IMG/VR virus record: IMGVR_UViG_3300008050_000075
Coordinates: 1-48,031 of that record
DNA length: 48,031 nt
From: a virus
Direction: 5' to 3' (one strand)
Shown in pieces: positions 3,352 to 21,742 of the stretch. The number at the start of each line of letters is the position of its first letter. The stretch's first letter is position 1. Both the position numbers and the translations under genes were made by a program. The notes beneath the pieces were generated by a model. It was not told the DNA's origin, searched no databases, and saw only the letters and a list, made by a program, of their open reading frames with translations.

Positions 3352-3738
3352 ATGTGGTGGAATATTCTAAAGAGTATTAGTTATTCGGCGGTGGTGTTGG
3401 ATGAAAAGTCTAAAAATACTTTACTTGAGTTAGATATTCCCGAAGGTTGGAAACCTATTGCACATCATATGACTATTACTCTTGGGCCATTAAAAGAAGA
3501 TTCAAAGTATAAGGTGGGCGAAGAAATTAATATGCCCATAATCGCTATTGGTAAAGATGATAGGGCGATGGCGGTTAAGGTGGAAGCCAAAGGTGCAAAT
3601 GTTAAATCTTTTCCTCATGTTACTGTTGCAATTAACCCTAATGGTGGTAAACCATTTCATTCTAATAAAATCCCAAGAGAAAACTTTACTGAGTTTAGTG
3701 GGGTATTAAGTGGTATTGTTATGGAGATTTCTAATTAG
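3352..3738 (+). CDS. 2H phosphoesterase-like protein (LigT/CPDase fold)
   Basis: A 128-residue protein with two H-x-T motifs, H39-M-T41 and H89-V-T91, the paired catalytic signature of the 2H phosphoesterase superfamily. Family members hydrolyse 2',3'-cyclic phosphates or 2'-5' linkages at RNA ends. The second motif, in PHVTVAIN followed by GGKPFHSNK, recalls the cyclic phosphodiesterase domain of fungal tRNA ligase. The H-x-T motifs are seen directly; the substrate is inference. The first 9 residues (MWWNILKSI) precede the fold and closely match the leader of the next gene. Followed 8 nt later by a CCA-adding-type enzyme, it may help repair tRNA ends cut by host nucleases. Confidence 0.72.
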   Translation: MWWNILKSISYSAVVLDEKSKNTLLELDIPEGWKPIAHHMTITLGPLKEDSKYKVGEEINMPIIAIGKDDRAMAVKVEAKGANVKSFPHVTVAINPNGGKPFHSNKIPRENFTEFSGVLSGIVMEISN

Positions 3739-3746
3739 GTGATACT

Positions 3747-4991
3747 ATGTGGTTTAATATATTAAAAATATCTGTTGATATTATGCCCCAAGAATTGAGA
3801 AACCATATTAAGAAAGAGGGTGGTAAGGTGTATCAAATCGGTGGGGCAGTTAGAGATGAGTTTTTAGGTAAAGTATCTAAAGACTTAGATTTAATTATTA
3901 CAGGAATAGATATTGATGATTTACAAGTAATTTTAGGGGAATATGGTTCTGTTAATCTTGTTGGGAGGAATTATGGGGTATTGAAGTTTAGACCAACGGG
4001 CCTAACCGGAGAGCCAATAGATATTTCAGTTCCAAGAATAGAGGTTAGCACAGGAGAAGGGCATAAAGATTTTGAAGTTAGGTTGGGTAGAGGTATTACT
4101 TTAGAACAGGAACAATTGCGTAGGGATTTTTGGATGAATGCAATTGCGAAAGATATAGATACAGGGGAGTTAATTGATATTGAGGGTAAGGGGCAATTGG
4201 ATATAAAAAATAAATTAATTTCAGTAATTAACCCTAAAGCGTTTGATGACGACCCACTTAGAATGTTAAGGGCAATACAGTTTGCGGCAAGGTTTGACTT
4301 TGAAATAGAACCTAAAACTATGCAAGAAATAAAAAAGAATGCTAAAAAAATTACTACTGTTTCCCCCACTAGATTTCAAGAAGAATTTAGAAAGATGTTT
4401 GAAAAGGCAAATAAACCAACAGTCGGTGTAGATTTATTAATTGAAACGGGAATTATGCCTTTAATTTTAAGTAAGGGGAAAAGTAACCCATTGATGGATA
4501 AATTAGATAAAAAGGCATTCCCTACATTTTTAGCCCTATTAGCAGAAGATTATGGTGAAGCGGCAGGAGAAACAATACAAACTTTAATGAAAGTATCAAA
4601 GGTAGATACTAAGGCAATTCAAGCAGTAGTAGATTTTCAAAAGATACCCTTTACAAACATTTCAATTATTCAATTCTTAAAAGATAGGGCTAATTTAGAT
4701 TATGTTATTCAACATATTGATGCGTTATTAAAGGCGCAAGGTAAAGGGGCATTAAGTGATAAATTAAAGGATATGAAGGGGGGCGGGATGCCTACAAAAA
4801 GAAATGAGTTAGCAGTTAGTGGGCGGGATTTATTAGATGTGGGGTTAAAGGGTAGACAAATTGGTGAAGCCATAGAATATTTAATGGGGGTTGCCGTTAA
4901 TTCTAAGAATGAAAAGGAACATTTAATTAACGAAGCGAAAAGAGAGTTTGGTATATCTAAAATGTCATGGGAGGATTTACTATGGAGATAA
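3747..4991 (+). CDS. Class II CCA-adding enzyme / poly(A) polymerase-like nucleotidyltransferase
   Basis: A 414-residue protein. The nucleotidyltransferase head is clear: IGGAVRD at 31-37, the metal-binding DxD at 46-48 (KDLDL), RRDFWMNAIA at 125-134, then DDDPLRMLRAIQFAARF from about 167 in the neck. This is the arrangement of bacterial-type class II enzymes; archaeal cellular CCA enzymes belong to class I. It probably adds or repairs the CCA end of tRNA, although poly(A) addition cannot be excluded. It starts with the leader MWFNILKIS and ends with KMSWEDLLWR, so it carries a proposed targeting peptide at both termini. The ribosome binding site is TAGGTGAT, 3 nt before the ATG. Its 3' end overlaps the terminase start. 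Confidence 0.88.
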   Translation: MWFNILKISVDIMPQELRNHIKKEGGKVYQIGGAVRDEFLGKVSKDLDLIITGIDIDDLQVILGEYGSVNLVGRNYGVLKFRPTGLTGEPIDISVPRIEVSTGEGHKDFEVRLGRGITLEQEQLRRDFWMNAIAKDIDTGELIDIEGKGQLDIKNKLISVINPKAFDDDPLRMLRAIQFAARFDFEIEPKTMQEIKKNAKKITTVSPTRFQEEFRKMFEKANKPTVGVDLLIETGIMPLILSKGKSNPLMDKLDKKAFPTFLALLAEDYGEAAGETIQTLMKVSKVDTKAIQAVVDFQKIPFTNISIIQFLKDRANLDYVIQHIDALLKAQGKGALSDKLKDMKGGGMPTKRNELAVSGRDLLDVGLKGRQIGEAIEYLMGVAVNSKNEKEHLINEAKREFGISKMSWEDLLWR

Positions 4992-6424
4992 AACAAATGG
5001 ATTTTGTACATGACATGGATATGGAATTGTCAAAAAATTCTTTCCCTTATTTTTTCAAAGAAGTGTTGGGTTATGATTTAGCCGACTTTCACCAAGAATG
5101 GTTGGAGTTGATTAATACTACTGATAGGACAGTAATTATTTGTAGCCGTGACCACGGTAAATCGGTTTTTATGCACAGTTGGGTTGTATGGAATCTATGT
5201 TTTCAACCACCCCCCTATCAATTCTTATACATATCTTCTAACCATAAACAGACTATGGTTCATATGAGAGAAATAGATAGATTATTTGAAGCCCCTGCCC
5301 TACATCAATTCAAACCTTCAAGAGGATGGGCAATAGGAAACATAACTTTAACTAATGGTAATTCAGTTATGGAAAGGTCAATTGGTTCACAGATTCGGGG
5401 GCTTCACCCTCAAGAAATTATTATTGACGACCCGTTGAAGGAGTTTAGTTTATCCGCTATCCGTAAAGTAACAGATTGGTTTTTTGGGGATATGATACCA
5501 ACCCTCCATCATACTGCTAAGTTGAGAATGATAGGAACGCCCTTTACCTATACTGATATATTTACTGAGTTAGAAGATAATGCCGCCTATACGGTTAGGA
5601 AATACCCATGTTTGAATCAATTGGGTGAAGCATTGTGGGCGGATAGATGGGATTATGATTCACTAATGAGAAGGAAAGAAGAAGTAGGGTCAATGAAGTT
5701 TACAAGGGAATACTTATGTATCCCTATTTCAACCGGCACTTCACTATTTAACCATGAGCATTTAGATGCTTGTAAGGATTTAGGTAAAAAGGATATTGTT
5801 AGAATGCGTGGTAGGCATAAAGAGGGGTATAGTTATTATGTCGGGGTAGACCCTGCAATTTCAACAGATGGTGATTACAATGTTATCCTTGTATTGGAAG
5901 TAGATGAGGATAGGAATAAGCGCATTGTCTTTATAGATAGGCAGAAGAATGTAGAGTTTAGAGAAAATATAAATAAATTAAAATTGATTGGGCAATTGTT
6001 TTCCCCCGAAGTTATATTTTTAGAAACTAACACCTTTGCTAAATCATTTACCCAAGAATTGAGAAATATTACTGATTTGAATGTTAGGGATTTTACTACC
6101 ACAAGAAAGAGGAAGGAAGAAATAATACTTAATTTGCAGATGAATATAGAGAACCACAAAATAGTATTTCCTATGGGTAATGAAGAAAGCCGTAGAGTTA
6201 GTGGTAATATTGTTGATGAATTGTCTATGTTCTGTATTACAGATAGGGGCAAGTTTGAGGGGGTAGGAGCACATGACGACTTGGTAATGGCTCTTGCTTT
6301 GGCTAATGCGGCTACTCATTCTTTGACCGAAGCCTTTGTATTGTTAGACGACTTGGATATATTCGGCAGTAGTGCTCAAGATGCTCCTATGGGCATTGGC
6401 GGAGTATTAGGTTTGAACATTTAG
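4982..6424 (+). CDS. Terminase large subunit (packaging ATPase-nuclease)
   Basis: A 480-residue TerL that would translocate DNA into the procapsid and cut it. The ATPase has a Walker A-like CSRDHGKS at 54-61 and Walker B EIIIDD at 145-150. The RNase H-like nuclease shows the expected acidic residues: D290 in GVDPAIS, E348 in FLETN, and D432-D433 in AHDDLVMA. The start at 4982 is preferred because GGGAGG at 4969-4974 sits 7 nt upstream; an in-frame ATG at 4967 lies within that region. No small terminase is recognisable next to it. Confidence 0.95.
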   Translation: MEIKQMDFVHDMDMELSKNSFPYFFKEVLGYDLADFHQEWLELINTTDRTVIICSRDHGKSVFMHSWVVWNLCFQPPPYQFLYISSNHKQTMVHMREIDRLFEAPALHQFKPSRGWAIGNITLTNGNSVMERSIGSQIRGLHPQEIIIDDPLKEFSLSAIRKVTDWFFGDMIPTLHHTAKLRMIGTPFTYTDIFTELEDNAAYTVRKYPCLNQLGEALWADRWDYDSLMRRKEEVGSMKFTREYLCIPISTGTSLFNHEHLDACKDLGKKDIVRMRGRHKEGYSYYVGVDPAISTDGDYNVILVLEVDEDRNKRIVFIDRQKNVEFRENINKLKLIGQLFSPEVIFLETNTFAKSFTQELRNITDLNVRDFTTTRKRKEEIILNLQMNIENHKIVFPMGNEESRRVSGNIVDELSMFCITDRGKFEGVGAHDDLVMALALANAATHSLTEAFVLLDDLDIFGSSAQDAPMGIGGVLGLNI

Positions 6425-6435: not shown

Positions 6436-7761
6436 ATGGGCGAAAAGGGTGATAAAATTAGGGAATTGGCGGATAACGCTGATGAACAAGAACGCCTTAC
6501 AGAAGAAATGGAGAACCTTAACAAGTGGTTAATATCACAACCCATTATTGATGAACATGAAATCGCTAAGAGAATGTGTTTGAAGTTTCAAATTAATTTA
6601 TCGGAGGCGAAAAAGAACCTTGAGAAATACCCGATGGAATATAAAGTGGAAGATAAATATATTCCCGATATAGTTAAAGATATGCGAAAATATAGGCGGA
6701 AACTAAAGGGCGATAATAGGGATAATATGTCTAAATCTATTGATACTTTGGTGTACGCTTATGGTGATTATTTGGGGAAGTGCGTGGATTCTATTTATTG
6801 GGTTAAAAAATACAAGAGCCCTTTGACTAAAATGAAAGGTGATGAAAAGAACCTAAAAAAGATTTATAGTATTAAAGATGGAGATACCCGACAAAAGGTA
6901 ATAGATTCAGTCTGTAAGTTTTGGGAGGCTGATTTAGATATTAAGGGGGTTCCCTATGGTAAAGAATATGCTTCTTTGAGTAAGAGTAGAACCTCTGCTA
7001 AAAAGGAATTGACAAGTATATTGAAGAACATTACCCACCAATCTATTAGGAAAAACTTTAGTGAAAAGGTTGAGGAGTATGTTATCAAAAAAGTGAGTGA
7101 GAATCAAGGTATATCGGCAAGAGAAATACATGAAACGATGGAGTTGAAAATGTTTAGAAAAACTTCTCCTTTTATAATATCTAAAATGAGTGATAAGATT
7201 AACCTTACTAATATAGATGGTAGATATTATAAATTGGATATGAGCATAAAGAAGGATTTGTATGCTTATACTGCGGCCTTTATTGATTCTGATGGGTATA
7301 TTACTATGGATAAAAAGGGCAACCCAAGAGTCGGGTTGGTTGCTACGGGCGATAGGGGTAAGGCATTTATGGTTGAGATGCACAAGAGTTTGGGGGTAGG
7401 AAAACTGCACCTAGACCAAAAATCCCCCCAAAATACAAGGCCGGTTAATCGGCTTAATTTTTATTCTCAGGATGATGTTAGGGAATTGTTACTTAAATGT
7501 CGGCCCTTTTTTAGAATGAAGGGTGAACAGGCCGATACTTTACTTGAATTAATAAGGATTAAGAAGGAACATAAAAAGCAAGATTGGGCTAAACCAAGAA
7601 TAGAAGAATTATTTAAGTTGATGAAGTGGTATAATCATAAAGACCATGTGGGTTTTGACTTTTCACCGTATGGGATTGATGCGGAAGTTATTTCTAAATT
7701 AGAAGGGAATAATAAAATGGGTATTATGGATGGTATAGAGCAAGCGGGAGTGGTGGCTTAG
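6436..7761 (+). CDS. LAGLIDADG-type endonuclease-like protein with helical N-terminal region
   Basis: A 441-residue protein. YTAAFIDSDGYITM, starting near residue 277, is a single LAGLIDADG-type motif, followed by the usual strand pattern and a C-terminal part with FFRMKGEQADTLLELI. Such enzymes with one motif normally work as homodimers and cut DNA to spread themselves. Residues 205-265 look like a winged helix, and the first 200 residues are helical, charged and unrecognised. The gene is inserted between terminase and portal, a common place for homing genes. Because no small terminase is visible nearby, a domesticated role in DNA recognition for packaging is conceivable, but that is speculation. 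It is preceded by a purine-rich GGGGGAG site. Confidence 0.8.
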   Translation: MGEKGDKIRELADNADEQERLTEEMENLNKWLISQPIIDEHEIAKRMCLKFQINLSEAKKNLEKYPMEYKVEDKYIPDIVKDMRKYRRKLKGDNRDNMSKSIDTLVYAYGDYLGKCVDSIYWVKKYKSPLTKMKGDEKNLKKIYSIKDGDTRQKVIDSVCKFWEADLDIKGVPYGKEYASLSKSRTSAKKELTSILKNITHQSIRKNFSEKVEEYVIKKVSENQGISAREIHETMELKMFRKTSPFIISKMSDKINLTNIDGRYYKLDMSIKKDLYAYTAAFIDSDGYITMDKKGNPRVGLVATGDRGKAFMVEMHKSLGVGKLHLDQKSPQNTRPVNRLNFYSQDDVRELLLKCRPFFRMKGEQADTLLELIRIKKEHKKQDWAKPRIEELFKLMKWYNHKDHVGFDFSPYGIDAEVISKLEGNNKMGIMDGIEQAGVVA

Positions 7762-9405
7762 ATGGCTAAGAAGCGTTTTTCAATTAAGAGTTTTCTAAGA
7801 AAGAGAACCCCTATACCTGCTGATAGAACAGTATTTCAAATGGGTATTCAAGAGAGGGCCGATTCATTAATAATGAGTTCCCCTATTCTTTATGAAGTGG
7901 CGAACAGTTCAGTAATTGTTAGGACATGCACTACACAGTTAAAAAATGAAGTATTTAGGAGAGGGTATGAATGGAGGAAGGCTTTTGTTCTTAAGTGTGA
8001 AGATTGTAAAAAGGAACATGATAATCATGTGGATACCTGTAATCAATGTGATAGTAGTAATCTAAGGAAACCTAGTGCTGAACAATTAGAGTATGTTAAT
8101 GAAATGTTTGGTTCATATATCAATTCCTCCGAACAATTATTTATTGATGTGCTGAGGCAATTGGAAGATGATTTGAATATTATGGATGATGCGTATATTA
8201 TGTTGGTTAAAGAGTATTATGTGGATGGTAATGGTGAAATTAAACTACATAAAATTAAAGAAATATATAGGGGCGACCCCATAACTATGACTATTTATGC
8301 TGATGAAACGGGTTCAAGAGGTACTAAGGGATTTACTGCCCTGCATGATAGGTCTATAATGACGGCTGATGAACATGAGTGTCATCCCGATTCGGGGGAG
8401 ATTTTACATCCCGTTCATTATGTTAATAGAGTGAATGGGGAAGAACAGTATTTTATTAGGGGTGAAGTATTACATTTCAGTAAGTATTCACCGAGTAGGC
8501 TTTATGGGCAATCCCCTGTTGTAACTTTATTTAAGCACATAACTACTTTACTTGCTATGGAAAATTATGTAAATACTTCCTACACTAAAAGTAGAATGCC
8601 GAGAGGTTTATTGGCCGTTCAAACAAGAAATATGGAGAGCATGAGAGGCTTTTGGAGGTCTGTAAAAGAGAAGATGGAGGAAGACCCCCATTTTATACCT
8701 GTTATGGGTATAGAAGCGGATAACGGTAAAGGTTCTGTTGAATGGATTAAGTTTATGGATAGCCTTAAAGAAATGGATTATGTTTCAGTTAAGGAAGATT
8801 TGAGAGATAGGATAGGAGGGTTTTATGGAGTAAGTAAGATATTCATGGCTGATTCTTCAACAAGTGGAGGTTTGAATAATGAAGGTATGCAGATTTTAGT
8901 TACTAATAGGGCCGTTGAAATGGCTCAAAATGTATATAATAAGTATGTGTTTCCGTGGTTATGTAAAGAGTTTGGTATTACTGATTGGAGATTAGTATTA
9001 CCTCCTAGCGAAGAAGAAGATGAAATTGCTGTTTTAAGAAAGAGAGAAATAGAAGTAAATATTGCTAATTCTATTAAAGGCTTGGGCTTTGAAGTAGAAA
9101 TGGGTGATGATGGGGAGTTTATTTTTAAGAAACCTCCACCCGTTCAAGAAAAAGCACCCGTAGGAGAGGGGGAAAAAGGCGGAGGTGGGGGGAATAATCC
9201 CCTTGCTGGTTCTAATTTAGACCAAAGAGATTTAGATGAGCAGATGAGAAACTTAACTCAAGGTGAGGCAAAACCTCAAGAGAACCCCGCAACCACAAGA
9301 AATAAACCCTCTATGAGTGTAGGGCCACCTAACCGCAATAGCGGTCTACCCGAAGAAGCGGCAAATAATAATGTAGATAAAAGGACAGAAAGGAGAGTTG
9401 GATGA
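7762..9405 (+). CDS. Portal protein (HK97/SPP1-like) with zinc-ribbon insertion
   Basis: A 547-residue portal forming the ring at the capsid vertex through which DNA passes. Typical features are the N-terminal basic segment, VIVRTCTTQLKNEVFRRGYE near 51-70, the middle part with YGQSPVVTLFKHI, and SVKEDLRDRIGGFYGV. Its place directly after the terminase region supports the call. Cys79, Cys82, Cys93 and Cys96 form a C-x2-C...C-x2-C zinc ribbon inserted near the N-terminus, unusual for bacterial phage portals. The tail from about residue 455 is low-complexity (Pro, Gly, Gln, Asn). The ATG follows the previous stop without a gap. Confidence 0.9.
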   Translation: MAKKRFSIKSFLRKRTPIPADRTVFQMGIQERADSLIMSSPILYEVANSSVIVRTCTTQLKNEVFRRGYEWRKAFVLKCEDCKKEHDNHVDTCNQCDSSNLRKPSAEQLEYVNEMFGSYINSSEQLFIDVLRQLEDDLNIMDDAYIMLVKEYYVDGNGEIKLHKIKEIYRGDPITMTIYADETGSRGTKGFTALHDRSIMTADEHECHPDSGEILHPVHYVNRVNGEEQYFIRGEVLHFSKYSPSRLYGQSPVVTLFKHITTLLAMENYVNTSYTKSRMPRGLLAVQTRNMESMRGFWRSVKEKMEEDPHFIPVMGIEADNGKGSVEWIKFMDSLKEMDYVSVKEDLRDRIGGFYGVSKIFMADSSTSGGLNNEGMQILVTNRAVEMAQNVYNKYVFPWLCKEFGITDWRLVLPPSEEEDEIAVLRKREIEVNIANSIKGLGFEVEMGDDGEFIFKKPPPVQEKAPVGEGEKGGGGGNNPLAGSNLDQRDLDEQMRNLTQGEAKPQENPATTRNKPSMSVGPPNRNSGLPEEAANNNVDKRTERRVG

Positions 9406-9406
9406 T

Positions 9407-9616
9407 ATGACAACAAGAGATGAATTAGCAAAAATTAGGAGAGAGTTGCAAGCGGCTGAAAAGGCAGTAACTTATAATGAGAGTAAGACTGAAACAAATA
9501 GGGACATGGGCCCAATAACTTTACCGAAGAAAAAATGGTTAAAACCAAAGGCTTCCGAAATACCTAATGTTATTCATATGCCTCCTAAACAAAGAAGAAC
9601 AGAAAATAAGTGGTAA
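9407..9616 (+). CDS. Small basic protein of unknown function
   Basis: A 69-residue protein with an N-terminal coiled-coil-like helix (RDELAKIRRELQAAEKA) and a basic, proline-containing second half. A TTG at 9398 is in frame, but GGAGAG at 9392-9397 is too close to serve it and is well placed for the ATG at 9407, so the ATG is chosen. Its stop is followed one base later by the next ATG. The position right after the portal suggests a head protein; nothing more can be said. Confidence 0.6.
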   Translation: MTTRDELAKIRRELQAAEKAVTYNESKTETNRDMGPITLPKKKWLKPKASEIPNVIHMPPKQRRTENKW

Positions 9617-9617
9617 T

Positions 9618-9890
9618 ATGTGGATGGGTATTCTCAAGGCTTGGAAAGTGGAGAGCACTACGAGATTACAAAATATGATTGATGGAGTGGCTAAAGATAT
9701 GGATGTTTTTTCAGCAAGGGCATTGTTTAGCGTAACTTTTGCTAAAGCACATGAGTTGAGGAGAGAAGGTAAAATGGGTTCATTCGCACACTATGATAAG
9801 AGTGGGTTAATAGCATACCTTAAGCGTAGTGATAATTATATGATTGTAGAACGGGGCGATAATGGTAATACTTGGGGGTGGGTTGCTTGA
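9618..9890 (+). CDS. Small unknown protein with MWxxILK leader
   Basis: A 90-residue protein beginning MWMGILKAWKVE, which shares the M-W-x-x-I-L-K leader with the 2H phosphoesterase and the CCA-adding-type enzyme. The ATG at 9618 lies one base after the previous stop. A longer in-frame start at 9567 would overlap the previous gene by about 50 bases and hide the leader, so it is rejected. The rest (RALFSVTFAKAHELRREGKM and a C-terminal GNTWGWVA) matches nothing I recognise. The stop overlaps the TTG start of the following gene. Confidence 0.7.
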   Translation: MWMGILKAWKVESTTRLQNMIDGVAKDMDVFSARALFSVTFAKAHELRREGKMGSFAHYDKSGLIAYLKRSDNYMIVERGDNGNTWGWVA

Positions 9891-12800
9891 CTTTGCTCAA
9901 AGCGTATTTAATGGGTACAAATAACCCATTTGTGTTAGCCAAAGTATATTATGATGAGGTGTTGCTTAAGAGGGAGATTAACCCAATGTTTAACTTACCT
10001 GAAATTAAACTACACCTAAACCTTATTGCACAACAAGAAAGTATTGTTGAAGAAATTGATTCGGTAGTGGCTGATGTAGAAGATGATTTTAAGTATGTTA
10101 AACAAGTAAGCGAATCATTAGCAAGATTTGAGCGACCATTAAATAATACACCTTTAGAAGTGAAACTATCAAAACCCTATGAAAAAGTGATACAAATATG
10201 GGATTCTAATGCGAAAAAGTTTAGGTATGTTGAAAACCCCAAATATGATAAAAATGTGTCTGCTCCCGCCCCTAAATCTGAGGTAACGACCACGGAAAAG
10301 GATAAGAAGAATAAGGAGAAAGAAGAAAAAGAAAGAAAGGAGAAAGAGAGAAAGGAGAGAGAAAATACAACCACAGAACAGGATTTCATGGGGGGCATAC
10401 CAAGAAGGGTTATCCCCAAGAAGGTATTGTATGAGGATGAAGAAGATGAATCCCTTTTGGTTCATATAGGGACATCGGGAAAGACAGGAAAGAAAACCGT
10501 GGATGAGAATATTTTAGGGGATAAAGAGGGTATTGTGGCGGATATTATTGATTTTGAAGAAGTGCATATTAGTGATATTGAATCTTGGCATAAATTAGTA
10601 GATGAATTAGGAAAATTATTAATAAAGTATGAGGGGCAATTGAAAGAAGAAGAAAACATATTAAAACATATGAGTGAGAAACTTGAAAAAACTCTTAATA
10701 AACTTAAAGAAAAGAAGGGTATAGTTGAGTTAGAAGCATGGAAAAAATGGGCAATTACACAGTTTGAGAAACAGATAGTATCGCTTGAAGAAATTATTAG
10801 TGGTTTAGGTGATTATAGTGAAATGGTTGATATTACTGCTTTACAAGAAAAATATAAGAAAGAGATAGAAGTTGCTACTGACAAGTGGAAGCGAGGTATT
10901 AAGGCACCTTCTGGTAAGAATTGGATACAGGAATTAGGCAAACTCCAAGTAGCCCATAAAAAAGAATTAGCGGAAAAACTTAAGTCGCAGACAGGGACAC
11001 CTCTTAAGGCATATAATTTACAAGAAAAGATAAAGGAGATAAAGGGTGTAATTAAGGAATACAAGGCTAAAAAAATAGATACTGTTTCACTAACGGCTTT
11101 TATTCAAGAACATACTAGACCTTTGACGGCGGAGCAAAAAGAGAAAAGAAAGAAAGAGCGTGAGGCTGAGAATAAAAAGAGAGAGAAGGAGGGTAGACCC
11201 CTTCTACCTAAAATACACGAACACACTTCACCAAATGATGAATCAAGTAGTAGGGATAAGAAAATAAAATTTACAGATTCAAAATATTTAAGCACAATAA
11301 AAAACAAGAAGTTGAAGGAGGATTTGGAGGAATTTTTTAGTAATATAAGTGCAGAAGATAAATTGTTGTTTTCTTCTCCTAATGTTTTAGGTGGGAGGAA
11401 AGCAGATGGTTCGGATGAACCGAAAGTAACAACGGGGCAAAAATTTGCTCTTGACCCAAAGCAAAAACCTACTGCATCTTATTTCCTAAGTCATGGAGGA
11501 AAACCTGCACCCGAAGGTACAGAGGAACAAGAGGAGGCCAACCTTTCAAAATTGAAGGATATTTTTAGTAGATATAAGGGAGATAATGATAGGGAATTGA
11601 TTGAAAGGATTAAGACTTCTATTGAGCGAAGATTGTCTGTTATTCGGAGGAAAGCAGAGGAAGAAGCACAAAGGAAAGGGAAAAGAAAGGGAAGGGAACA
11701 TATTGCCCTTACTACATACACCTCATTGAAAAAAGGGTTGCAGAGTATATTAGATGATGCAAATAGAGTAACAGAATTAATTACTAGGAAAAAAATTGTT
11801 AAATTATTTAAGGGGGGTAAGAGAAAATTCACTATGAAAGATTTGGATTTTTGGGAAATTGATGAAGCGGTGGAAAATCTTAAAAAAGAAAATAAAAAAA
11901 GAGCATCTTCTGTTCTCCTAAATAAAACCATTCAAAAATTAAATGGTATAAAAATTGACTTGGAAGAAATATTGGATAGTAAAGTGAAAGACACTACTTT
12001 AAGGGAAATTGTTCGTAGAGCAATAGGTAGAAATATTGGCGGTAAATCAAAAAATGATGGTTCAAAGAGTGGAGGTTCTAAAATACAATCGCATTTGTTA
12101 AGAGAAAACAGAATAAGGCGTGATGCGGAAGGTAAGTTTATTGAACCTACTGAACCCGATGAACCCGAACCTATTGAGTTTGAAGCACCATTGAGAGAGA
12201 ATTATGGGAGTGATAGAGAATATAAAGACGCTCTCCATAAGATAAAACACGCACATAGGCTAAAACAAGAGAGGATAAAAGTTACCCATAATAAAAAAAT
12301 GAAAAAATATAAAACCCTTAAAGCAAAATATGACGATGCTATGGAAGGAGAGAAAGAATATAATAAATTAAAACAGATGGTCGGTTCTATCAAGGGCAAA
12401 GAAGGAGGGAAGAAGTTTTCCGATGAGTGGCTCAAAATAAACCATGATGTGCTGAAGAAATATGTAGGGGTTATCCCTGCTGATGAGAAGCGTAAGGTTC
12501 TTGAAATTATTAATAAAGGACATAAACTATATGCCAAGATAAATGTTAAGAGTAAAGATAAACTTACGCCCTATAATGAATTAAACCCATTACAACAAAG
12601 AGTAAGGCAATATTTCTTGGCGAAGAAATTAAAGTCGGAGAATGAAACTTCCTCAGAAGATTTGGCCGTATCTATTGAGGCTTTAATTGAAACAAACGCC
12701 GAAGATACTTCGGAGTGGATTAACCCTTTAACTGCCCAAAAAGAGAAAGTTAGTAGTAGAGAAAAGGCTACACTTATTGGGTTTTTAGGAAGTGGTCTTG

Positions 12801-13075
12801 AGTTCAAATCACCAATAGAGAAGAATAGATTGGCTTTTATTGCCGCTTTTGATGATGAAACGGCTTCCGATGTGCACCTTATGAAAGTGTGGAAAAAAAC
12901 TATTAAAAGACCTAAGAAGAAGAAAATTCTACCAATTGCTGGTAAGAGTAATTTGGGTGAAGTGCTTGATTATGAAGGGCGCACACTTGGAGATTCTTTA
13001 GAAGATAAGAAAACTGTTACAGACGAGAAGTATGTTTCGGATGATGAATATGGTGCGAACCCCGATGGGGAATAA
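9887..13075 (+). CDS. Very large charged coiled-coil protein
   Basis: A 1062-residue protein dominated by Lys and Glu, with long stretches of predicted coiled coil and polyampholyte, for example the KEREKERKERE-type segment near residue 150. I see no enzymatic motif or membrane segment. The TTG at 9887 is chosen because it overlaps the preceding TGA as TTGA and follows a GGGGGTGGG run; it gives an N-terminus MTLLKAYLMGTNNPF. Its place between portal and scaffold genes suggests an internal head or core protein, possibly ejected with DNA, but this is inference from position and composition only. Confidence 0.75.
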   Translation: MTLLKAYLMGTNNPFVLAKVYYDEVLLKREINPMFNLPEIKLHLNLIAQQESIVEEIDSVVADVEDDFKYVKQVSESLARFERPLNNTPLEVKLSKPYEKVIQIWDSNAKKFRYVENPKYDKNVSAPAPKSEVTTTEKDKKNKEKEEKERKEKERKERENTTTEQDFMGGIPRRVIPKKVLYEDEEDESLLVHIGTSGKTGKKTVDENILGDKEGIVADIIDFEEVHISDIESWHKLVDELGKLLIKYEGQLKEEENILKHMSEKLEKTLNKLKEKKGIVELEAWKKWAITQFEKQIVSLEEIISGLGDYSEMVDITALQEKYKKEIEVATDKWKRGIKAPSGKNWIQELGKLQVAHKKELAEKLKSQTGTPLKAYNLQEKIKEIKGVIKEYKAKKIDTVSLTAFIQEHTRPLTAEQKEKRKKEREAENKKREKEGRPLLPKIHEHTSPNDESSSRDKKIKFTDSKYLSTIKNKKLKEDLEEFFSNISAEDKLLFSSPNVLGGRKADGSDEPKVTTGQKFALDPKQKPTASYFLSHGGKPAPEGTEEQEEANLSKLKDIFSRYKGDNDRELIERIKTSIERRLSVIRRKAEEEAQRKGKRKGREHIALTTYTSLKKGLQSILDDANRVTELITRKKIVKLFKGGKRKFTMKDLDFWEIDEAVENLKKENKKRASSVLLNKTIQKLNGIKIDLEEILDSKVKDTTLREIVRRAIGRNIGGKSKNDGSKSGGSKIQSHLLRENRIRRDAEGKFIEPTEPDEPEPIEFEAPLRENYGSDREYKDALHKIKHAHRLKQERIKVTHNKKMKKYKTLKAKYDDAMEGEKEYNKLKQMVGSIKGKEGGKKFSDEWLKINHDVLKKYVGVIPADEKRKVLEIINKGHKLYAKINVKSKDKLTPYNELNPLQQRVRQYFLAKKLKSENETSSEDLAVSIEALIETNAEDTSEWINPLTAQKEKVSSREKATLIGFLGSGLEFKSPIEKNRLAFIAAFDDETASDVHLMKVWKKTIKRPKKKKILPIAGKSNLGEVLDYEGRTLGDSLEDKKTVTDEKYVSDDEYGANPDGE

Positions 13076-13096
13076 ATATTGAAGTGGTGAATAATA

Positions 13097-13432
13097 ATGA
13101 CTTGGGAAAATATTTTGAGAAAAGAGAATAGTGCTATTCTTGATACTTTAGATGAAAAACAGAAGAAAAAGTTAAAGAAAACTTTACAGTCGGCTGAACC
13201 AACGGAGTATTTCGGGCAAGACTTTACCAAGTTGGGGGAGTTAGTAGATATGCTTAAAGAGTTAGATTTAATTAAGGCAGATAAAAGATTAACTAAGAAA
13301 GTAAAGACTTTTAGTGAGAAGAATGTTGATGTAATTGCTACTGCGGCTAAATTAAGAAAAACATATGAGGAATTATATAGACAAATTAGACAAATAATAT
13401 ATCCTAAAAACAAGGGGTTGAACAAAGAATGA
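13097..13432 (+). CDS. Small helical protein with MTWENILR leader
   Basis: A 111-residue, Lys-rich, all-helical protein beginning MTWENILRKENSAIL. The leader matches the M-x-W/x-x-N-I-L-K/R start of three other genes and shares the W-E-N/D-I/L core with C-terminal tails of other proteins here. The remainder resembles no family I know. The ribosome binding site is GGTGAATAATA. It overlaps the next gene by ATGA. Confidence 0.72.
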   Translation: MTWENILRKENSAILDTLDEKQKKKLKKTLQSAEPTEYFGQDFTKLGELVDMLKELDLIKADKRLTKKVKTFSEKNVDVIATAAKLRKTYEELYRQIRQIIYPKNKGLNKE

Positions 13433-13668
13433 CAGTAAATGAAGAAGTAATAACATTAATTAAAATGTTAATGGAAAAGATTGAAAAATTAGAAAAGAAT
13501 GTGTACGATGGCGACAATATATTAGTTAAGTCGGGGATGGTTAAAGTTAATGGCCCTGTGCCTTCAATAAGCCATACTGCTGACGGTTTGCCTGATTCTA
13601 ATGCGATAGCAAAAATGAGTTGGGAAGATATTAATAACATGGTAGCACAAATGGAGGGGAGAGCATGA
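13429..13668 (+). CDS. Small protein ending in KMSWEDI tail
   Basis: A 79-residue protein. An N-terminal helix (about 1-24) is followed by a short linker and the C-terminal segment KMSWEDINNMVAQMEGRA. That tail matches the end of the CCA-adding-type enzyme (KMSWEDLLWR) and the end of the protease-scaffold (KMDWSDIHSTLDKLTGGI). Serine is coded AGT here and TCA in the CCA-type gene, so the peptide is conserved independently of the DNA. Function unknown; it could be a scaffold accessory or packaged protein. Confidence 0.7.
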   Translation: MTVNEEVITLIKMLMEKIEKLEKNVYDGDNILVKSGMVKVNGPVPSISHTADGLPDSNAIAKMSWEDINNMVAQMEGRA

Positions 13669-13991
13669 ATGTGGAAGAAATTATGAAAAAATTAAAGGAA
13701 ATTAAAGTGGCCGAATATAATAATGTTACTAGTGGTGAAGAAAAAAGCCCTATCCAAGTGGCTGATAAAGATAGATTACCCAATGATGATGATTTAGCAG
13801 GTAAGGAAATAAAACCCGAAAATAAAAAGGGAGAAAAGATAAAGGACAGAGGGTCAATGAGTAGGACAACCCCAATGGATGGAACAAGTGAGTGGAATAA
13901 AGATAAGAAAGATTATCTTTTTGATGCTACGGTAAAACACATCACCATTGAATCATTACAGAATCAATTGGATGATGTATTAAAAGAGTAG
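13665..13991 (+). CDS. Small charged protein of unknown function
   Basis: A 108-residue protein with an N-terminal helix (EEIMKKLKEIKVAEY), a hydrophilic disordered-looking middle and a C-terminal helix (TIESLQNQLDDVLKE). The ATG overlaps the previous stop, with GGGGAGAG upstream. It is the last of three short genes between the coiled-coil protein and the ligase. No function is suggested by the sequence. Confidence 0.65.
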   Translation: MNVEEIMKKLKEIKVAEYNNVTSGEEKSPIQVADKDRLPNDDDLAGKEIKPENKKGEKIKDRGSMSRTTPMDGTSEWNKDKKDYLFDATVKHITIESLQNQLDDVLKE

Positions 13992-14001
13992 GTGGTTTCA
14001 T

Positions 14002-16509
14002 TTGCCCCTTTCTGGTATTTTTGAAAAAGATGTTTCTGTTTTGTCAAGACAGATTGAGCGTCTATTTGAAGGTGTTAGGGTTGATTATCTTTCAGCAAGA
14101 GAAAACCCTACATCTTATAGTAAAGATTGGGGTAAAAGGGTAGAGAAAGTTAGAGAAGCCTATAATGATATAGATGATTTGGCTAGAGTATTACAAGACA
14201 CTATTACTGAAAAGGATTTAGAGTCGGATGATGTTAAAAACCCCGAATCTAATTCTGCGAGGAATGTTTATGGTGCAATAAAAACATTAAGGTTTGACAG
14301 TAAGTATATCAAAGACCCCTTTAGAAAAAAGTTTAAGGAAGAAACATTTGAGAAACTGATGGCGGATAAAAACCTATTGGCTACCTTTATACATTGGGCT
14401 ACAAGAACGGATGAACGGGCTCTACCCAATGAGTCTTGGGAAAACTTATTGCCTAAAGGTGATGTTATTACGGATGGATATAGGGGTTTAGACCTACATT
14501 TAGATGATATTGGGTCATATTTCATTGAACATTATGGGGAAGGTAAGGACACTAAGATGGTTAAACCTAAAATAAAGGGGGCTATATCCCTCTTGAAAGA
14601 AACCTTTACTGCTTCACATGGGGAAGATGGGTGGAGAAAATTAGCGGATATTTCTAAGGCTGAAAAAAAAGCAAGCATGGATTTTATAGTGCCTAATAAA
14701 CCAATGTATCGTATTTTCAACATTGATGACATTAAAGAATTAAAGGGGTTTACGGGTGAATGGGTAGTGCAGGAGAAATACGATGGTATGCGTGTTCAAT
14801 TACATAAAATAGGTGATACTGTTACTGTTTTCTCATATAATAATAAAGATATTACCGATAAATGTGAAGAAGCAGTTAAAATACTAAAGGATAAGAAGTT
14901 TGGTGAATGTATTTTAGATGGTGAATTAATGTTGTTTGATGGTGAAAAGCCTCTATCAAGGGCTAAAGCAATAGCAAGGGTGTTCAAGGATGCGAATAAA
15001 GATATGACTATTAAGATACATGTGTTTGATATAATGAGGCACAATGATAGAGAATTGATGGAGGTTGATTTGGAAGAAAGATTACAAATACTTATGCAAA
15101 ACTACACTCCACATTCACATGATTTTTTGGCTTTCCCGTCTAAACAAGATACAAGGATTGCTCATTCATTGGAAGAAATAGAGGGTTATGCTAAGGAAAT
15201 TATGGAAATACCTACTTCGGAGGGGGTAGTAATAAAGGATTTAACTTCTACTTATTTTGTTGGTACTAAGAAAAACCCAAAGTGGATTAAGTGGAAGAAG
15301 TTTGTTGATTTAGATTTAATGGTTATAGATAAAAAAGAAACTGCTTCTAACTTGAAGTCTTATACTTTAGGTGCAGGGCCATTAAGTATTGAAGAATCAC
15401 GAAAATTAGAACATAAAAAGGTTAATGACCGTTATTATCTAAATGTAGGTAAGGCACTTAATACTAAGGTGGATGTAGAAATAGGTTCAATAGTAAGGGT
15501 AAAGGTGGATGAAGTTAAAAAGAATAAGAAGGGGCAAATTAGGGTATTTTCGGCTAAGGTGATTGAGATTCCCGAAGTGGAAAGCCCCGATAAAATAATA
15601 ACTTTAGAATTATTAGCGGGTGAAAAAGAAGCCATACAATATAAGGTGAAGGCGTTAGAAAAAGGTTATACTGTTAGTGATGATTCTCATGGTGAAGTGG
15701 GGGTTATATTAAAGTCGGAGTATAAGGGATTTACAATATATGGTTTTGAAGAAGATAATTTAATGGCTAAGAATGCTTTATTAGATATTGATATTTGGAA
15801 GGAACAGATAGATAGTATAATGAAAGAAAAGAAAGGCTACCTAAGAGTTTTTATTAAAAACATTATACAACAGGAGAGTAATAATAAATTACCTTTGGCT
15901 AAAATACTTGATAGTATAGAGAGAAATGACAAGGCTAATGCTATTTATCAAGAAGTATTTGATGGTAGTAGTAAAAAATTATCACAGTATTTAACTAACC
16001 AAGCAGAAGAAATATCATTTGAGGGACAACACACTTATTCGGCTAATGAAGAAATAATTGAGAAAGGAGAATATAAAACCCCCGATGAATATAGAGATGG
16101 TAAGTTCAAACTATACAAAAGAGAAGATGAGAACCTTTCTTTGACTTTTCTTCTTAATAATGAGAAATTAGGTTGGGAAATTAAAATAGAAGAAGATGAT
16201 AATATTTTTGATTTGTTTGGTAAGGCGGGTAGATACCCTGCTAAGGTACAATCTACTGTATCAAAAGAAAAGTTGGTAGATGAGGGCGACATTACTTTAG
16301 GTGTACAAAGAGAGGGGTATCATGAATATTTTTTGAAAGGGGAGAAATTTGAAACTAAACTCCATTTGAGGGTAGTGCCCATAGGAGGAGAAGATAAATG
16401 GTTAGCCTTTACTTCTTTTGTTAATGAGCCTGTTAATCCTAAAAGTGATGAAGGAAAATGGGATTTTAGAAAAGGTAAATACGCTCAATTATCCTTTGAA
16501 AACCTATAA
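14002..16509 (+). CDS. ATP-dependent DNA ligase with extra C-terminal domain
   Basis: An 835-residue ligase that seals nicks in DNA. Motif I is EKYDGMR with adenylated Lys259, followed by ILDGELMLFD (motif III), SEGVVIKD (motif IV) and WIKWKK (motif V), then an OB-fold with GSIVRVKVDEV. After the OB-fold come about 280 further residues. Their end (YFLKGEKFETKLHLRVVP, then WLAF) resembles the closing strands of the LigD 3'-phosphoesterase domain, but the usual catalytic His pattern is not evident. Residues 144-150 contain ESWENLL, akin to the proposed targeting peptide. The start is TTG at 14002 after GGTGGT, with no better ATG upstream. It lies in the morphogenesis block, away from the replication genes. 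Confidence 0.92.
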   Translation: MPLSGIFEKDVSVLSRQIERLFEGVRVDYLSARENPTSYSKDWGKRVEKVREAYNDIDDLARVLQDTITEKDLESDDVKNPESNSARNVYGAIKTLRFDSKYIKDPFRKKFKEETFEKLMADKNLLATFIHWATRTDERALPNESWENLLPKGDVITDGYRGLDLHLDDIGSYFIEHYGEGKDTKMVKPKIKGAISLLKETFTASHGEDGWRKLADISKAEKKASMDFIVPNKPMYRIFNIDDIKELKGFTGEWVVQEKYDGMRVQLHKIGDTVTVFSYNNKDITDKCEEAVKILKDKKFGECILDGELMLFDGEKPLSRAKAIARVFKDANKDMTIKIHVFDIMRHNDRELMEVDLEERLQILMQNYTPHSHDFLAFPSKQDTRIAHSLEEIEGYAKEIMEIPTSEGVVIKDLTSTYFVGTKKNPKWIKWKKFVDLDLMVIDKKETASNLKSYTLGAGPLSIEESRKLEHKKVNDRYYLNVGKALNTKVDVEIGSIVRVKVDEVKKNKKGQIRVFSAKVIEIPEVESPDKIITLELLAGEKEAIQYKVKALEKGYTVSDDSHGEVGVILKSEYKGFTIYGFEEDNLMAKNALLDIDIWKEQIDSIMKEKKGYLRVFIKNIIQQESNNKLPLAKILDSIERNDKANAIYQEVFDGSSKKLSQYLTNQAEEISFEGQHTYSANEEIIEKGEYKTPDEYRDGKFKLYKREDENLSLTFLLNNEKLGWEIKIEEDDNIFDLFGKAGRYPAKVQSTVSKEKLVDEGDITLGVQREGYHEYFLKGEKFETKLHLRVVPIGGEDKWLAFTSFVNEPVNPKSDEGKWDFRKGKYAQLSFENL

Positions 16510-16520
16510 ATCATGATTTC

Positions 16521-16530
16521 TTTTATATAG
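16521..16530 (+). promoter_or_regulatory. Candidate archaeal TATA box before the protease-capsid genes
   Basis: TTTTATATAG lies in one of the few gaps of the + strand block, about 25-30 nt before the protease-scaffold ATG. At the usual archaeal spacing transcription would begin almost at the start codon, yet an AGAGG site also precedes the ATG, so either a near-leaderless transcript or readthrough from upstream may be used. Confidence 0.45.
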
Positions 16531-16553
16531 TCATCGTGGTTTAAGAGGTTTTA

Positions 16554-17960
16554 ATGGCGATAGGAGCAACCTTGATTCGGCCCTTTACAGGCACTAATCA
16601 TTTTGCAGACTTTACTATCCTTAAATCGGATAATTTACATATTGCTGGTTATGCCTCTATTGAAATGGTAGATAAACAAAACGATTTAATTACTCTTAAT
16701 GCTCTTGGGGATGCAGTAAAGAAGTTTATGAATGTCCCTCGGTATAGAAATGTTATGTCTAACCATTCTAATGTTCAAGTTGGAGAAGTGGTTAAAGAAC
16801 ATAGGGATTCATCGGGTAAGATATGGAAAACCGAAGTAGATGATGTAGGTTTCTTTGTGGTTATTAAACTGCGAGATGATATAGAAAAGGCTAAAGAGGT
16901 TTCAAGGAGTATTAGAAATGGAGGGTTGCGTTCTTTTAGTATTGGAGGACAAGCAATTCATAAGAAGAAAAAAACCCATGAAGATTTGGGTGATTATAAT
17001 GAAATTAGTAAATTAGAATTACATGAAGTTACCATTTGCGAAAAGGGTATTAACGCTGAGGCAAAATTTGATATTCTCAAACAAGAGAAAGGTGAAACTA
17101 TGAATATAGACAACGCATTACAAGAGATTAATACATTAATTAAACAAATAGAAAACGACAGAGTAGAGAAAACGGCCCTTCCTAATAACTTGGAAGATAT
17201 GTTAGGAGGTAAAACACCAACGGTAGATTCAATTAATGCTGAATTGGCCTCAGTAATGGGGGGCGAAATAGCATGGGGTGAAGCCCAAAGGGTGGTTGAG
17301 AGAGCAGGTATTTCTCAAGAAGATTTCAAACAAATGGCCGCAGAGCACGATTTAGTAGTAAAAAATGAAGGTGAAAATATGACAGAAGAATTGTTAGACA
17401 CAGAAGGCGAAGGCGAGGACATGGAATATATGTCTGCTGGTGAAGGAACGAATGAAGAAGAAGTTGGAAAGACAGATTTAGCCTATGGTGCGGAAAATCC
17501 TGATGAAACGGGTGAAGTAATTCACGATGGTACGCCAAGAAGTAAGCATCCGCAAATTAATGTGAGTGAAAATACAGTAACCGTAAAGGCATACGATGGT
17601 GATACTCCGTCTTTGAATCTAAGCGAAGAAAATTTAGAAAAGGCTTATTCTCAATTTAAGGCTGAACAGATGGAAAAAATGGCTTATCAAGACATTAAAT
17701 CTACCTTTGAAACTCGCCTTGAAAAAGAATTGAGTGTTAAGAAGGCTCGCCAATCTAAAGAGTCTTATGATGCTCAGTTGGAAGTTAACGAATTGAAGAA
17801 ACAATTTAGCGAATTACTTTCCGCAATTAAAGACGACAAAGAAACAGTAATTATGAAGCAACAACAAGTGGCTTCCCAATTACCTACTTTTGATGATATT
17901 TCTAAAATGGATTGGAGCGACATTCATTCCACTTTGGATAAATTAACGGGAGGCATTTAA
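16554..17960 (+). CDS. Prohead serine protease fused to scaffold
   Basis: A 468-residue protein. The first 180 residues match the S78-type prohead protease pattern: GYASIEMVDKQNDLI, His71 in SNHSNVQVGEV, Ser129 in LRSFSIGG, and LELHEVTICEKGINAEA. It would cleave scaffold and capsid N-termini after procapsid assembly. From about residue 185 the protein is acidic and helical, as in scaffolds, with a coiled coil near 360-440. It ends KMDWSDIHSTLDKLTGGI, matching tails on two other proteins here. Scaffold C-termini often bind the capsid protein, which makes this shared ending informative. The major capsid gene follows. Confidence 0.9.
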   Translation: MAIGATLIRPFTGTNHFADFTILKSDNLHIAGYASIEMVDKQNDLITLNALGDAVKKFMNVPRYRNVMSNHSNVQVGEVVKEHRDSSGKIWKTEVDDVGFFVVIKLRDDIEKAKEVSRSIRNGGLRSFSIGGQAIHKKKKTHEDLGDYNEISKLELHEVTICEKGINAEAKFDILKQEKGETMNIDNALQEINTLIKQIENDRVEKTALPNNLEDMLGGKTPTVDSINAELASVMGGEIAWGEAQRVVERAGISQEDFKQMAAEHDLVVKNEGENMTEELLDTEGEGEDMEYMSAGEGTNEEEVGKTDLAYGAENPDETGEVIHDGTPRSKHPQINVSENTVTVKAYDGDTPSLNLSEENLEKAYSQFKAEQMEKMAYQDIKSTFETRLEKELSVKKARQSKESYDAQLEVNELKKQFSELLSAIKDDKETVIMKQQQVASQLPTFDDISKMDWSDIHSTLDKLTGGI

Positions 17961-17993
17961 GTTTCCTTTGGGAATTAAATAGAGGTGAAAATT

Positions 17994-19340
17994 ATGGTAA
18001 AATATATTAATACATTGAAAGACTTAGAAAACGCAACCTATGGAGTTGCAGGGAATAACCTATTAAAAGCAGGTGGCCTTGTTGCTGGTGTTCACACCGG
18101 CCATGATAGTGCTACTGCTCTTAACGGAACGGCTTGGAGTTCAACCCCCAACCTATACAATGTTCTATACGGCCAAAAAGTATGGTCTATGCTAAATCAA
18201 GAAGTAAACCCTTTGAGTATTCTTCCTAAGAAACCCTACACAAGTAGCGGGTGGAGAGTTATGACAGGTCGCCCTGCTGGTGGTAGTGGTGCGGCTTTTG
18301 GTTTGGGTTCAACAAGTTATGCGGCTGGTAATGCTATGGCGGCACCAAACGCTGATGAAATTGGTGGAGTGGATGAAAACCACGGTCTTGCTTCGGCTGG
18401 ATTACAACCTTTAGCCCCAACATACGATGTTCTTTATATGAGCCCAAAGACAGTTGCTCATATGTTTGATTATTCGGAATTGGCTGGTGAAATGGCTAAG
18501 ATTGATGATGGTGTAGGAGATTTAAGAGCCCTTATTCGTGAAGATATGGGCAAATTTCACGCTGAAACACAATCAGTTATGCTGGTTATGCCCCTTGAAA
18601 ATTATGACGATACTAATTATGCTGGTATTGAAAGAAATTATACTTCTTTGATGAAGATAATTGCTTCAAGTGCAGAACATGAGGCTATGGTTGATGCTAC
18701 AATTCATGCAAGGTTAACTTCTACTTCTTCAACAGGTGGGTTAACAACCGATTTCTCACAATTGTATGGGAATACTTCTCGCCAATTAGTGGGTAATGCT
18801 TTTAATGCTTCCTTTATGGATTCTCAAGTAGATTATGGTGATTCTTATGCGGCGGCTGATGTTCGCCCATTAACCCTTACTTTATTGAATAACATGATTC
18901 AAAATTTGAGAACCAACGGCGGTACACCAAAATGTATCTTAACAGGATATGATACTATCCAAGCAATTGCAGACCTATTGCAGAGTCAAGAAAGATTCAT
19001 TGACGGAAAAGAAATTATTCCTACACATAATGGTGTTCGTGGAATTAAGGGTCAAGAAGTAGGATTTAGAGTAGCAACATACTACGATATTCCTCTTATT
19101 GCCGCAAAGGATATGCCTTCAAGCGGATTGGCTAGCACACAATTATCGGATATGCTCTTTTTAGATACCGACCATCTATGGCTTTCAGTTATGAAACCTA
19201 CTGAATACTTTGAAAGTGGTATTTCTCATGGCGACCCATTCGGAATTGGTACACTTGGGAATCGTGGAATGTATCGCACAATGGGCGAAACCGGATGTTC
19301 TTTCTTTAAGGGTCAAGGTAAAATTACCAACATTCAATGA
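17994..19340 (+). CDS. Major capsid protein (HK97 fold, inferred)
   Basis: A 448-residue protein directly after the protease-scaffold, the standard place for an HK97-fold capsid protein. Composition fits: Ala/Gly-rich, few Cys, and a C-terminal part with hydrophobic strands (TYYDIPLIAAKDMP, then MLFLDTDHLWLSVMKP). The N-terminal 50-60 residues could be the segment removed by the protease. AGAGGTG at 17981-17987 serves the ATG at 17994; a GTG at 17985 lies inside that site and is not used as the start. Codon use looks less AT-biased than in neighbours, as expected for a highly expressed gene. Confidence 0.88.
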   Translation: MVKYINTLKDLENATYGVAGNNLLKAGGLVAGVHTGHDSATALNGTAWSSTPNLYNVLYGQKVWSMLNQEVNPLSILPKKPYTSSGWRVMTGRPAGGSGAAFGLGSTSYAAGNAMAAPNADEIGGVDENHGLASAGLQPLAPTYDVLYMSPKTVAHMFDYSELAGEMAKIDDGVGDLRALIREDMGKFHAETQSVMLVMPLENYDDTNYAGIERNYTSLMKIIASSAEHEAMVDATIHARLTSTSSTGGLTTDFSQLYGNTSRQLVGNAFNASFMDSQVDYGDSYAAADVRPLTLTLLNNMIQNLRTNGGTPKCILTGYDTIQAIADLLQSQERFIDGKEIIPTHNGVRGIKGQEVGFRVATYYDIPLIAAKDMPSSGLASTQLSDMLFLDTDHLWLSVMKPTEYFESGISHGDPFGIGTLGNRGMYRTMGETGCSFFKGQGKITNIQ

Positions 19341-21070: not shown

Positions 21071-21742
21071 GTGTCAGTCGTTGCCGGATTTACTATTGTG
21101 TGTGCCGAATTAATTATGGGTTTCTACAAAAAAATCCATGCAATTAATTTTGGTATTTATGGTGCTGGTGAAGTGGGGAAAACCACCTTACATAAACAAT
21201 TGAGAACAAGAGGAGAAGTGGCTAATGTATCAAAAAGAACAGATGGATTACAAAGGGCTACAAGGAAAATCGTTAAAATAGATGGCGATTCACGCACCAT
21301 AAGGGCATCGGATGTTGGTGGGCAAAGTCAGTATTGGAATGAATGGAAACGGGATATGCGTGAAAGGAAGGTTCAATATGTTATTTTTGTTATAGATGAT
21401 ACTCATTTAAGCGAACCATATAATATGCAAAACCAATTGGCGTGGCAGTATTTAGTAGAAATAATAACAGATGAGTTTTGGCGTAAGGGGAAGAAAATAA
21501 AAAAAAAGAAGCCGCATGATTATCCGAAAGCAATAGCAATATGGGCAAACAAATATGATTTATGGGAGGGTAAATATGAACATGACGGGCCAATGGATAA
21601 ACACCCTATATTTTCACCTTTCAAATTGGGTTGTAATAAACTCAATGATATGGGGATTCCTACACATAAGTATATTGTTTCAGCCAAATCCGACCCCGAA
21701 ATGGTTTACAGGGGCGTAATGACAATAATTAAAGATTATTAA
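21071..21742 (+). CDS. Arf/SRPRB-like small GTPase with N-terminal membrane anchor
   Basis: A 223-residue P-loop GTPase. G1 is GAGEVGKTT at 31-39, G3 is DVGGQ at 81-85, G4 is NKYD at 160-163, and SAK near residue 204 fits G5. DVGGQ followed by a Trp-rich helix (SQYWNEWKRDM) is the Arf/Galpha/SRP receptor beta pattern rather than the Era/Obg pattern. Residues 2-19 are hydrophobic and could anchor the protein in a membrane. A Lys-rich loop (KKIKKKKPHDYPK) precedes G4. It starts with GTG after GTGTGATTAAAT. The two genes before it are also membrane proteins. The GTPase fold is seen in the sequence; its viral role is unknown. Confidence 0.9.
   Translation: MSVVAGFTIVCAELIMGFYKKIHAINFGIYGAGEVGKTTLHKQLRTRGEVANVSKRTDGLQRATRKIVKIDGDSRTIRASDVGGQSQYWNEWKRDMRERKVQYVIFVIDDTHLSEPYNMQNQLAWQYLVEIITDEFWRKGKKIKKKKPHDYPKAIAIWANKYDLWEGKYEHDGPMDKHPIFSPFKLGCNKLNDMGIPTHKYIVSAKSDPEMVYRGVMTIIKDY

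Follow-up and report, generated by a model that had tools for sequence, protein, structure and literature searches.

The DNA analysed here, called the window below, is a 48,031-base IMG/VR virus record taken at its full length. Two open reading frames on its + strand lie immediately 5' of the large terminase gene. They were re-found at 3352-3738 and 3747-4991, where a model reading the letters alone (the original prediction) had placed a phosphoesterase and a nucleotidyltransferase. The terminase start at 4982 falls within the 3' end of the second frame, and 3' of the terminase gene follow genes for an HNH protein, the portal, a ligase-domain protein, the prohead protease and the major capsid protein (MCP). 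The main features are:

3352..3738, + strand: 2H phosphoesterase (2',3'-cyclic phosphodiesterase, CNPase/tRNA-ligase CPD clade), tagged, 128 aa; from PF08302, HxT motifs and fold
3352..3372, + strand: leader MWWNILK of the 2H protein; from motif statistics and low pLDDT
3747..4991, + strand: class II tRNA nucleotidyltransferase (CCA-adding type), tagged, 414 aa; from PF01743, PF12627, PHROG 2244 and PDB matches
3747..3767, + strand: leader MWFNILK of the CCA enzyme; from motif statistics
4962..4988, + strand: C-terminal tag-like MSWEDLLWR of the CCA enzyme; relatives end LWKSILKK/LWKSILRR
4982..6424, + strand: terminase large subunit (TerL), context; PHROG 38, E 1.5e-51
9618..9890, + strand: small protein behind the portal gene, with leader MWMGILK; from the leader
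13097..13432, + strand: 111-aa member of a leader cluster of 54, leader MTWENILR; from the leader
13429..13668, + strand: 79-aa coiled-coil-like protein, C-terminal tag MSWEDIN at 13615-13635; 33 tagged relatives of this size class
16554..17960, + strand: S78 prohead protease, its long C-terminal part scaffold-like; PF04586, E 3.2e-9, and PHROG head maturation protease
17084..17102, + strand: Shine-Dalgarno-like AGGTG and in-frame ATG (17100), probable separate scaffold start; conserved in relatives
17907..17927, + strand: C-terminal tag MDWSDIH of the protease/scaffold; C-terminal motif in protease frames
17985..19340, + strand: MCP; PHROG 24667, major head protein

No tRNA gene was found in the 48,031-base window, which rules out that the CCA enzyme is there to serve window-encoded tRNAs. 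Sigma-70 promoters and terminators were no more numerous in the window than in shuffled sequence. Two further proteins of the region may be mentioned: the ligase-domain protein of the head module (14002-16509, 835 aa, ATP-dependent DNA ligase domain PF01068, also RNA_ligase), which is untagged and has homologues in related loci, and a small GTPase-like protein with weak MMR_HSR1 and Arf matches, encoded among the genes 3' of the MCP (21071-21742).

The host is likely an archaeon, as judged from viral relatives and gene content. A tblastn search of the phage collection with the MCP matched archaeal viruses only (Haloarcula viruses of Druskaviridae and methanogen viruses), the same Haloarcula viruses gave the best matches to the protease, and the relative G005 encodes PolB, a TCP-1/Cpn60-family chaperonin, an RFC-like clamp loader and an ATP-dependent DNA ligase.

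A minimal 2H phosphoesterase of the CNPase/tRNA-ligase clade

The 128-aa protein meets the definition of the 2H phosphoesterase superfamily, with two HxT/S motifs on a 2H fold. The motifs read HHMT and PHVT (HxT at positions 3463 and 3613), and H39/T41 and H89/T91 are invariant among 11 homologues. Its Pfam match to tRNA_lig_CPD (PF08302, E 3.6e-5) passes marginally, at 23.8 bits against a gathering score of 23. An AlphaFold model built from 11 diverse alignment rows reached a pLDDT of 89, while an earlier model from other input was poor (pLDDT 66). Its two best fold neighbours are CNPase (Z 11.8) and fungal tRNA ligase (6u05, Z 9.5). The Pfam score and the closest fold together place the protein in the tRNA-ligase CPD/CNPase clade, which confirms, at the level of family, the predicted 2',3'-cyclic-phosphate-type phosphoesterase. 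Like CNPase and the cyclic phosphodiesterase domain of fungal Trl1, it is expected to act on 2',3'-cyclic phosphates; it differs from them in being a tagged, stand-alone minimal domain with only ~15% identity. Searching PDB sequences with five 2H rows yielded chance matches only, and tblastn of the protein against annotated phages matched nothing.

A class II nucleotidyltransferase of a viral clade

The 414-aa protein has the head and RNA-binding domains of the class II tRNA nucleotidyltransferase superfamily, PolyA_pol (PF01743, 1.6e-14) and PolyA_pol_RNAbd (PF12627, 5e-13), both above their cut-offs. It also matches PHROG 2244 (tRNA nucleotidyltransferase, 1.3e-57) and CCA enzymes in the PDB (for example 6ibp, E 1.8e-21). 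GGAVRD, DLD, RRD, DDPLR and the motif that follows are intact, and the class II catalytic motifs (GGxVRD, DxD, RRD, E/DDxxR) are conserved in 13 homologues. Class I archaeal CCA families gave no match up to E 1, so that the class II, bacterial-type label is upheld and the grouping with class I enzymes that would have refuted it did not occur. Across the control genomes, PF01743 was present in ten, all of them bacteria.

While the enzyme shares its domains and motifs with bacterial class II CCA-adding enzymes (6ibp, 1miv), it lies in a viral clade distant from cellular sequences and bears tag peptides at its ends. In the NCBIfam equivalog test its best score was 120 bits against 439 required. 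It is therefore not filed as a cellular CCA equivalog, and CCA, CC-only and poly(A) activities cannot be distinguished. Its close relatives are viral (48-67% identity), and the sole cellular relative found outside the viral clade is ~30% identical. A contig scan with the CCA alignment returned one distant cyanobacterial contig and a contig from a Flavobacteriaceae MAG (52%); the latter is probably a phage contig, as its enzyme falls among the viral ones and starts with a peptide resembling the T4 capsid-targeting sequence (CTS). In the CCA tree the tagged enzymes form a single branch whose support is not strong (82/61). With the cellular row on a long branch as well, the tree does not allow the donor of the gene to be named.

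Fusions link the two enzymes in probable RNA repair

Domains that are adjacent in this virus are fused, independently, in unrelated viral contigs. A CCA-2H fusion occurs as a single 619-aa protein in an unrelated viral contig (L250:4525-6384) and again within a 1,913-aa frame of L252; an HAD phosphatase gene lies nearby in both. 2H is fused to HAD_SAK_1 in L253 and to an AAA_33 kinase (PNK-2H) in L249. In G005, a leader-bearing gene for HAD_SAK_1, of the Swiss Army Knife RNA-repair family, sits between the 2H and CCA genes. Fusion in one virus and adjacency in another are good evidence for a common pathway. Together with the CNPase/tRNA-ligase fold, the fusions lend support to the proposal of RNA-end repair, and we consider it highly probable that the two proteins are an RNA-end repair pair, although their enzymatic activity is inferred. 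Against this counts that no phosphatase was identified in the window, as 2H alone would leave a phosphate needing removal.

An RNA-repair role of phage-encoded CCA enzymes and 2H phosphoesterases has already been considered for jumbo phages (PMC7824862). As in the known phage sets (T4 Pnkp/Rnl1; jumbo-phage CCA, 2H and PNK; PMC7824862), virus-encoded 2H, HAD/PNK and CCA enzymes would undo tRNA damage. What differs here is that 2H and class II CCA make up a two-gene unit next to the terminase gene of an archaeal virus, that the window has no tRNA genes and that both enzymes bear a putative packaging tag. As a separate observation, the CCA-2H part of the L252 protein (L252:652-6393) is C-terminal, and its N-terminal part resembles a separate 1,132-aa frame in L250.

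A leader common to unrelated proteins of the head-gene region

The leader noticed in the original prediction (MWWNILK and MWFNILK) is real and far exceeds chance on related loci. In the 2H model, its residues 1-5 have pLDDT <50 and lie outside the fold. The general motif is M-x-W-x-x-[IV]-L-K, counted as M-x-W-x-x-[ILV]-[LIVM]-[KR]. In related-virus loci fetched by protease similarity, which gives a set unbiased for the leader, it begins 140 of 1,266 distinct open reading frames, whereas at the 5,739 internal Met it never occurs (p 1e-107), with related sequences treated as separate. It is found on 25% of + strand genes 5' of the protease and on 1.7% of those 3' of the MCP (p 1e-35); the protease-to-MCP interval (0/61) and the minus strand (0/85) are free of it. 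Terminase, portal and MCP have no leader, nor do genes of the replication region and nearly all of those of the tail region.

Over all fetched loci the carriers fall into ~350 sequence clusters, 253 of them single sequences; this count uses a slightly wider pattern, and part of the loci were fetched via the leader itself. Nearly all of these carriers are encoded 5' of the prohead protease. Among 110 cluster representatives the Trp never varies; for these proteins Pfam gave no more than pentapeptide repeats and a weak YkyA match, which leaves the function of the putative cargo mostly unreadable. A short N-terminal peptide common to unrelated proteins of one virus group qualifies the leader as capsid-targeting-like. 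It fails membership in the T4 CTS (MKTYQEFIAEA-like with an (L/I)xE cleavage site), being of different sequence; unlike in T4, no cleavage consensus follows it and no residue past LK is conserved. A literature search found no text with MSWEDILK and nothing apt on archaeal-virus capsid targeting, subscription journals being mostly not covered.

The motif recurs at the C-terminus of the protease and of a small coiled-coil-like protein

A form of the same motif, M[SDNT]WxxI[HN] or a close variant, ends the protease in nearly all relatives (65 distinct sequences, none internal) and also ends a ~78-aa coiled-coil-like protein (33 distinct sequences, none internal). The CCA gene itself ends in KMSWEDLLWR, where the coding sequence overlaps the TerL start and its ribosome-binding site.

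The protease gene appears to hold a second start. A Shine-Dalgarno-like sequence with an ATG lies at codons 173-195, past the protease domain, in 56 of the 65 proteases, compared with 10% of other internal ATGs. The Shine-Dalgarno-like sequence is read in different phases (K-G-E, K-V-K, K-E-D), indicating that the DNA itself is kept. From this we infer a separate scaffold protein that would end in the tag. Just 5' of the probable scaffold start, the protease domain ends in FDILK (17067-17081), which resembles the leader core and is present in 64 of 65 relatives. A protease whose scaffold part can start internally is also known from lambda C/Nu3 and herpesvirus UL26/UL26.5, and in UL26/UL26.5 the scaffold C-terminus contacts the capsid protein. 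In contrast to those systems, the scaffold start here is only inferred from conservation of the Shine-Dalgarno-like sequence and ATG, and the C-terminal peptide is also found at the N-termini of cargo.

T4-like phages bear their own leader on the homologous CCA enzyme

Homologous CCA enzymes are encoded by marine phage loci (L006-L018 and L238), one of which (L015) has T4-like neck and tail genes. These enzymes lack the W-leader. Allowing for start-codon choice, every one of them begins with a T4-CTS-like sequence (MIKFSSFLTETA, MFKFSTFFNESS, MKPFRKFLNEEA, MRKFKNYIIESN), and they thereby meet membership in the T4 CTS. Among neighbours of these genes, a CTS-like leader is present on 33 of 234 open reading frames, while internal Met show it in 2 of 650 cases. 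In T4 itself, internal proteins II and III start with MKTYQEFIAEA, a type of sequence whose role in targeting proteins to the T4 head is proven (PMC3012670, PMC5694885). Two unrelated virus groups thus appear to have each equipped this enzyme with a head-targeting peptide of their own. With packaging itself inferred, no other observation speaks more strongly for injection of the archaeal pair.

The archaeal-virus leader resembles the T4 CTS and the N-terminal signal of P1 DarB in being a short N-terminal peptide on head cargo, which here is inferred; in T4 and P1 the tagged cargo acts on host defences after injection, and the T4 CTS is common to unrelated proteins (PMC3012670, PMC5694885, PMC9024508). 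It differs from the T4 CTS in its sequence (W-x-x-I-L-K rather than MKTYQEFIAEA), in its additional C-terminal place on protease and scaffold, and in the many more protein families that bear it. The setting, an archaeal virus group with an HK97-type S78 protease, is also different from T4 and P1.

T4-like CCA loci also encode kinase-like AAA_33/Zeta proteins that begin with a CTS-like leader. Two proteins near the CCA gene (L015:12874-14067 and L012:5373-6569) combine a CTS-like leader with an AAA_33/Zeta kinase-like part and a weak NT5C-like phosphatase match; they may be a packaged PNK-phosphatase.

A head-loading model and its rivals

We regard it as probable that the leader serves these archaeal viruses as a capsid-targeting tag modelled on the scaffold tail, the packaging role being inferred. 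Under this model, the W-x-x-[IV]-L-K leader would copy the C-terminal tag of the protease/scaffold, an inference with strong positional support, and would dock at the scaffold-tag site inside the prohead, probably on the MCP, the docking partner being hypothetical. Tagged proteins would be enclosed as the shell assembles and ejected with the genome. In the new cell, 2H might open the 2',3'-cyclic phosphate left on tRNA 3' ends by a presumed host nuclease. Removal of the phosphate might fall to a phosphatase, which is HAD in one relative and would here be supplied by the host or be another enzyme of the virus; the class II nucleotidyltransferase could then restore the 3' CCA end, so that translation would be sustained before any viral gene is expressed. 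As a whole, this reading of 2H and CCA as internal head cargo injected to mend tRNA ends seems reasonably likely, with packaging, activity and nuclease all inferred. The earlier suggestion that a shared leader might mark both proteins for delivery with the DNA has gained from the wider leader system and from the CTS-like leaders on homologous CCA enzymes, packaging again being an inference.

Other explanations of the leader remain. It might tether its carriers to another viral structure, be it a replication or assembly site, a membrane or the terminase-portal, with the pair repairing RNA late in the cell. Leader genes do adjoin those of terminase and portal, many carriers are tiny and of unknown function, and no proteomics places them: we know of no virion proteome for this virus group, and tagged proteins have not been shown in particles. 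We consider a tether unlikely, however, given that the motif also ends the protease/scaffold, a component of the prohead interior, that it is missing from replication-region and nearly all tail-region genes, and that T4-like relatives bear CTS-like peptides on the same enzyme. There is even less to recommend the idea that the leader is mainly a nucleic-acid element, such as a translation enhancer at the start codon or a hot spot of gene shuffling, whose peptide has no function of its own. Part of the leader similarity does reflect copied DNA or an mRNA constraint, as Ser2 is AGT in 92% of cases against 30% in gene bodies, Glu4 is GAA in 97% and Ile6 is enriched in ATA; the leader also recombines between genes, the 2H protein of G002 having a different N-terminus before the same domain. 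Yet selection on the peptide is indicated by Leu7, for which all six codons occur, and Lys8 has the codon usage of gene bodies. MWFNILK and MSWMDILK moreover keep the peptide pattern without common DNA, and a C-terminal motif on the protease and coiled-coil-like protein does not fit a start-codon element.

A further rival concerns the 2H enzyme, which could be an Acb1-like anti-CBASS protein that degrades cyclic nucleotide signals, its place beside the CCA gene being incidental. Acb1 (7t26) is a phage 2H protein and is in the fold list at Z 7.0, but CNPase and the fungal tRNA ligase score clearly higher, tRNA_lig_CPD passes its gathering cut-off, and 2H domains are fused to CCA, HAD and PNK domains, which leaves this reading very improbable on fold and domain context.

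Returning to head loading, the broadest claim is that in a marine archaeal tailed-virus lineage one interchangeable scaffold-derived peptide loads hundreds of proteins into the head, including a ready-made 2H/HAD/CCA kit for tRNA ends that enters with the genome, and that T4-like phages have convergently come to package this CCA enzyme by a targeting peptide of their own; we hold this at only somewhat better than even. To our knowledge, no capsid-targeting code has been described for archaeal tailed viruses, and, if true, this would be one. Injected effectors would then be predictable from sequence alone across ~350 clusters, almost none of whose 110 scanned representatives has a Pfam match. 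It would also mean that infection can call for tRNA-end repair within its first minutes and imply tRNA-end-cutting defences in archaeal hosts, and the leader would offer a portable loading tag for protein delivery.

Other shared terminal segments

Two further kinds of shared terminal segment were observed. In L247, L248 and L249 another leader type, MKITKSxLKQIIREE, is common to several open reading frames, and one protein (L247:7503-8264) also ends in a similar sequence; the 2H and PNK-2H homologues of these loci also begin with leader-like peptides. In Druskaviridae, a different segment of ~30 aa (RVYI-x-SP-x-EAP...G-YYY) is common to several head-region proteins, at the N- or C-terminus, at 7781-10927, 12174-16115 and 16108-16569 of HVTV-1 (L235) and at 7376-10516 and 13474-17106 of HCTV-1 (L236). 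This segment is perhaps the halovirus counterpart of the tag.
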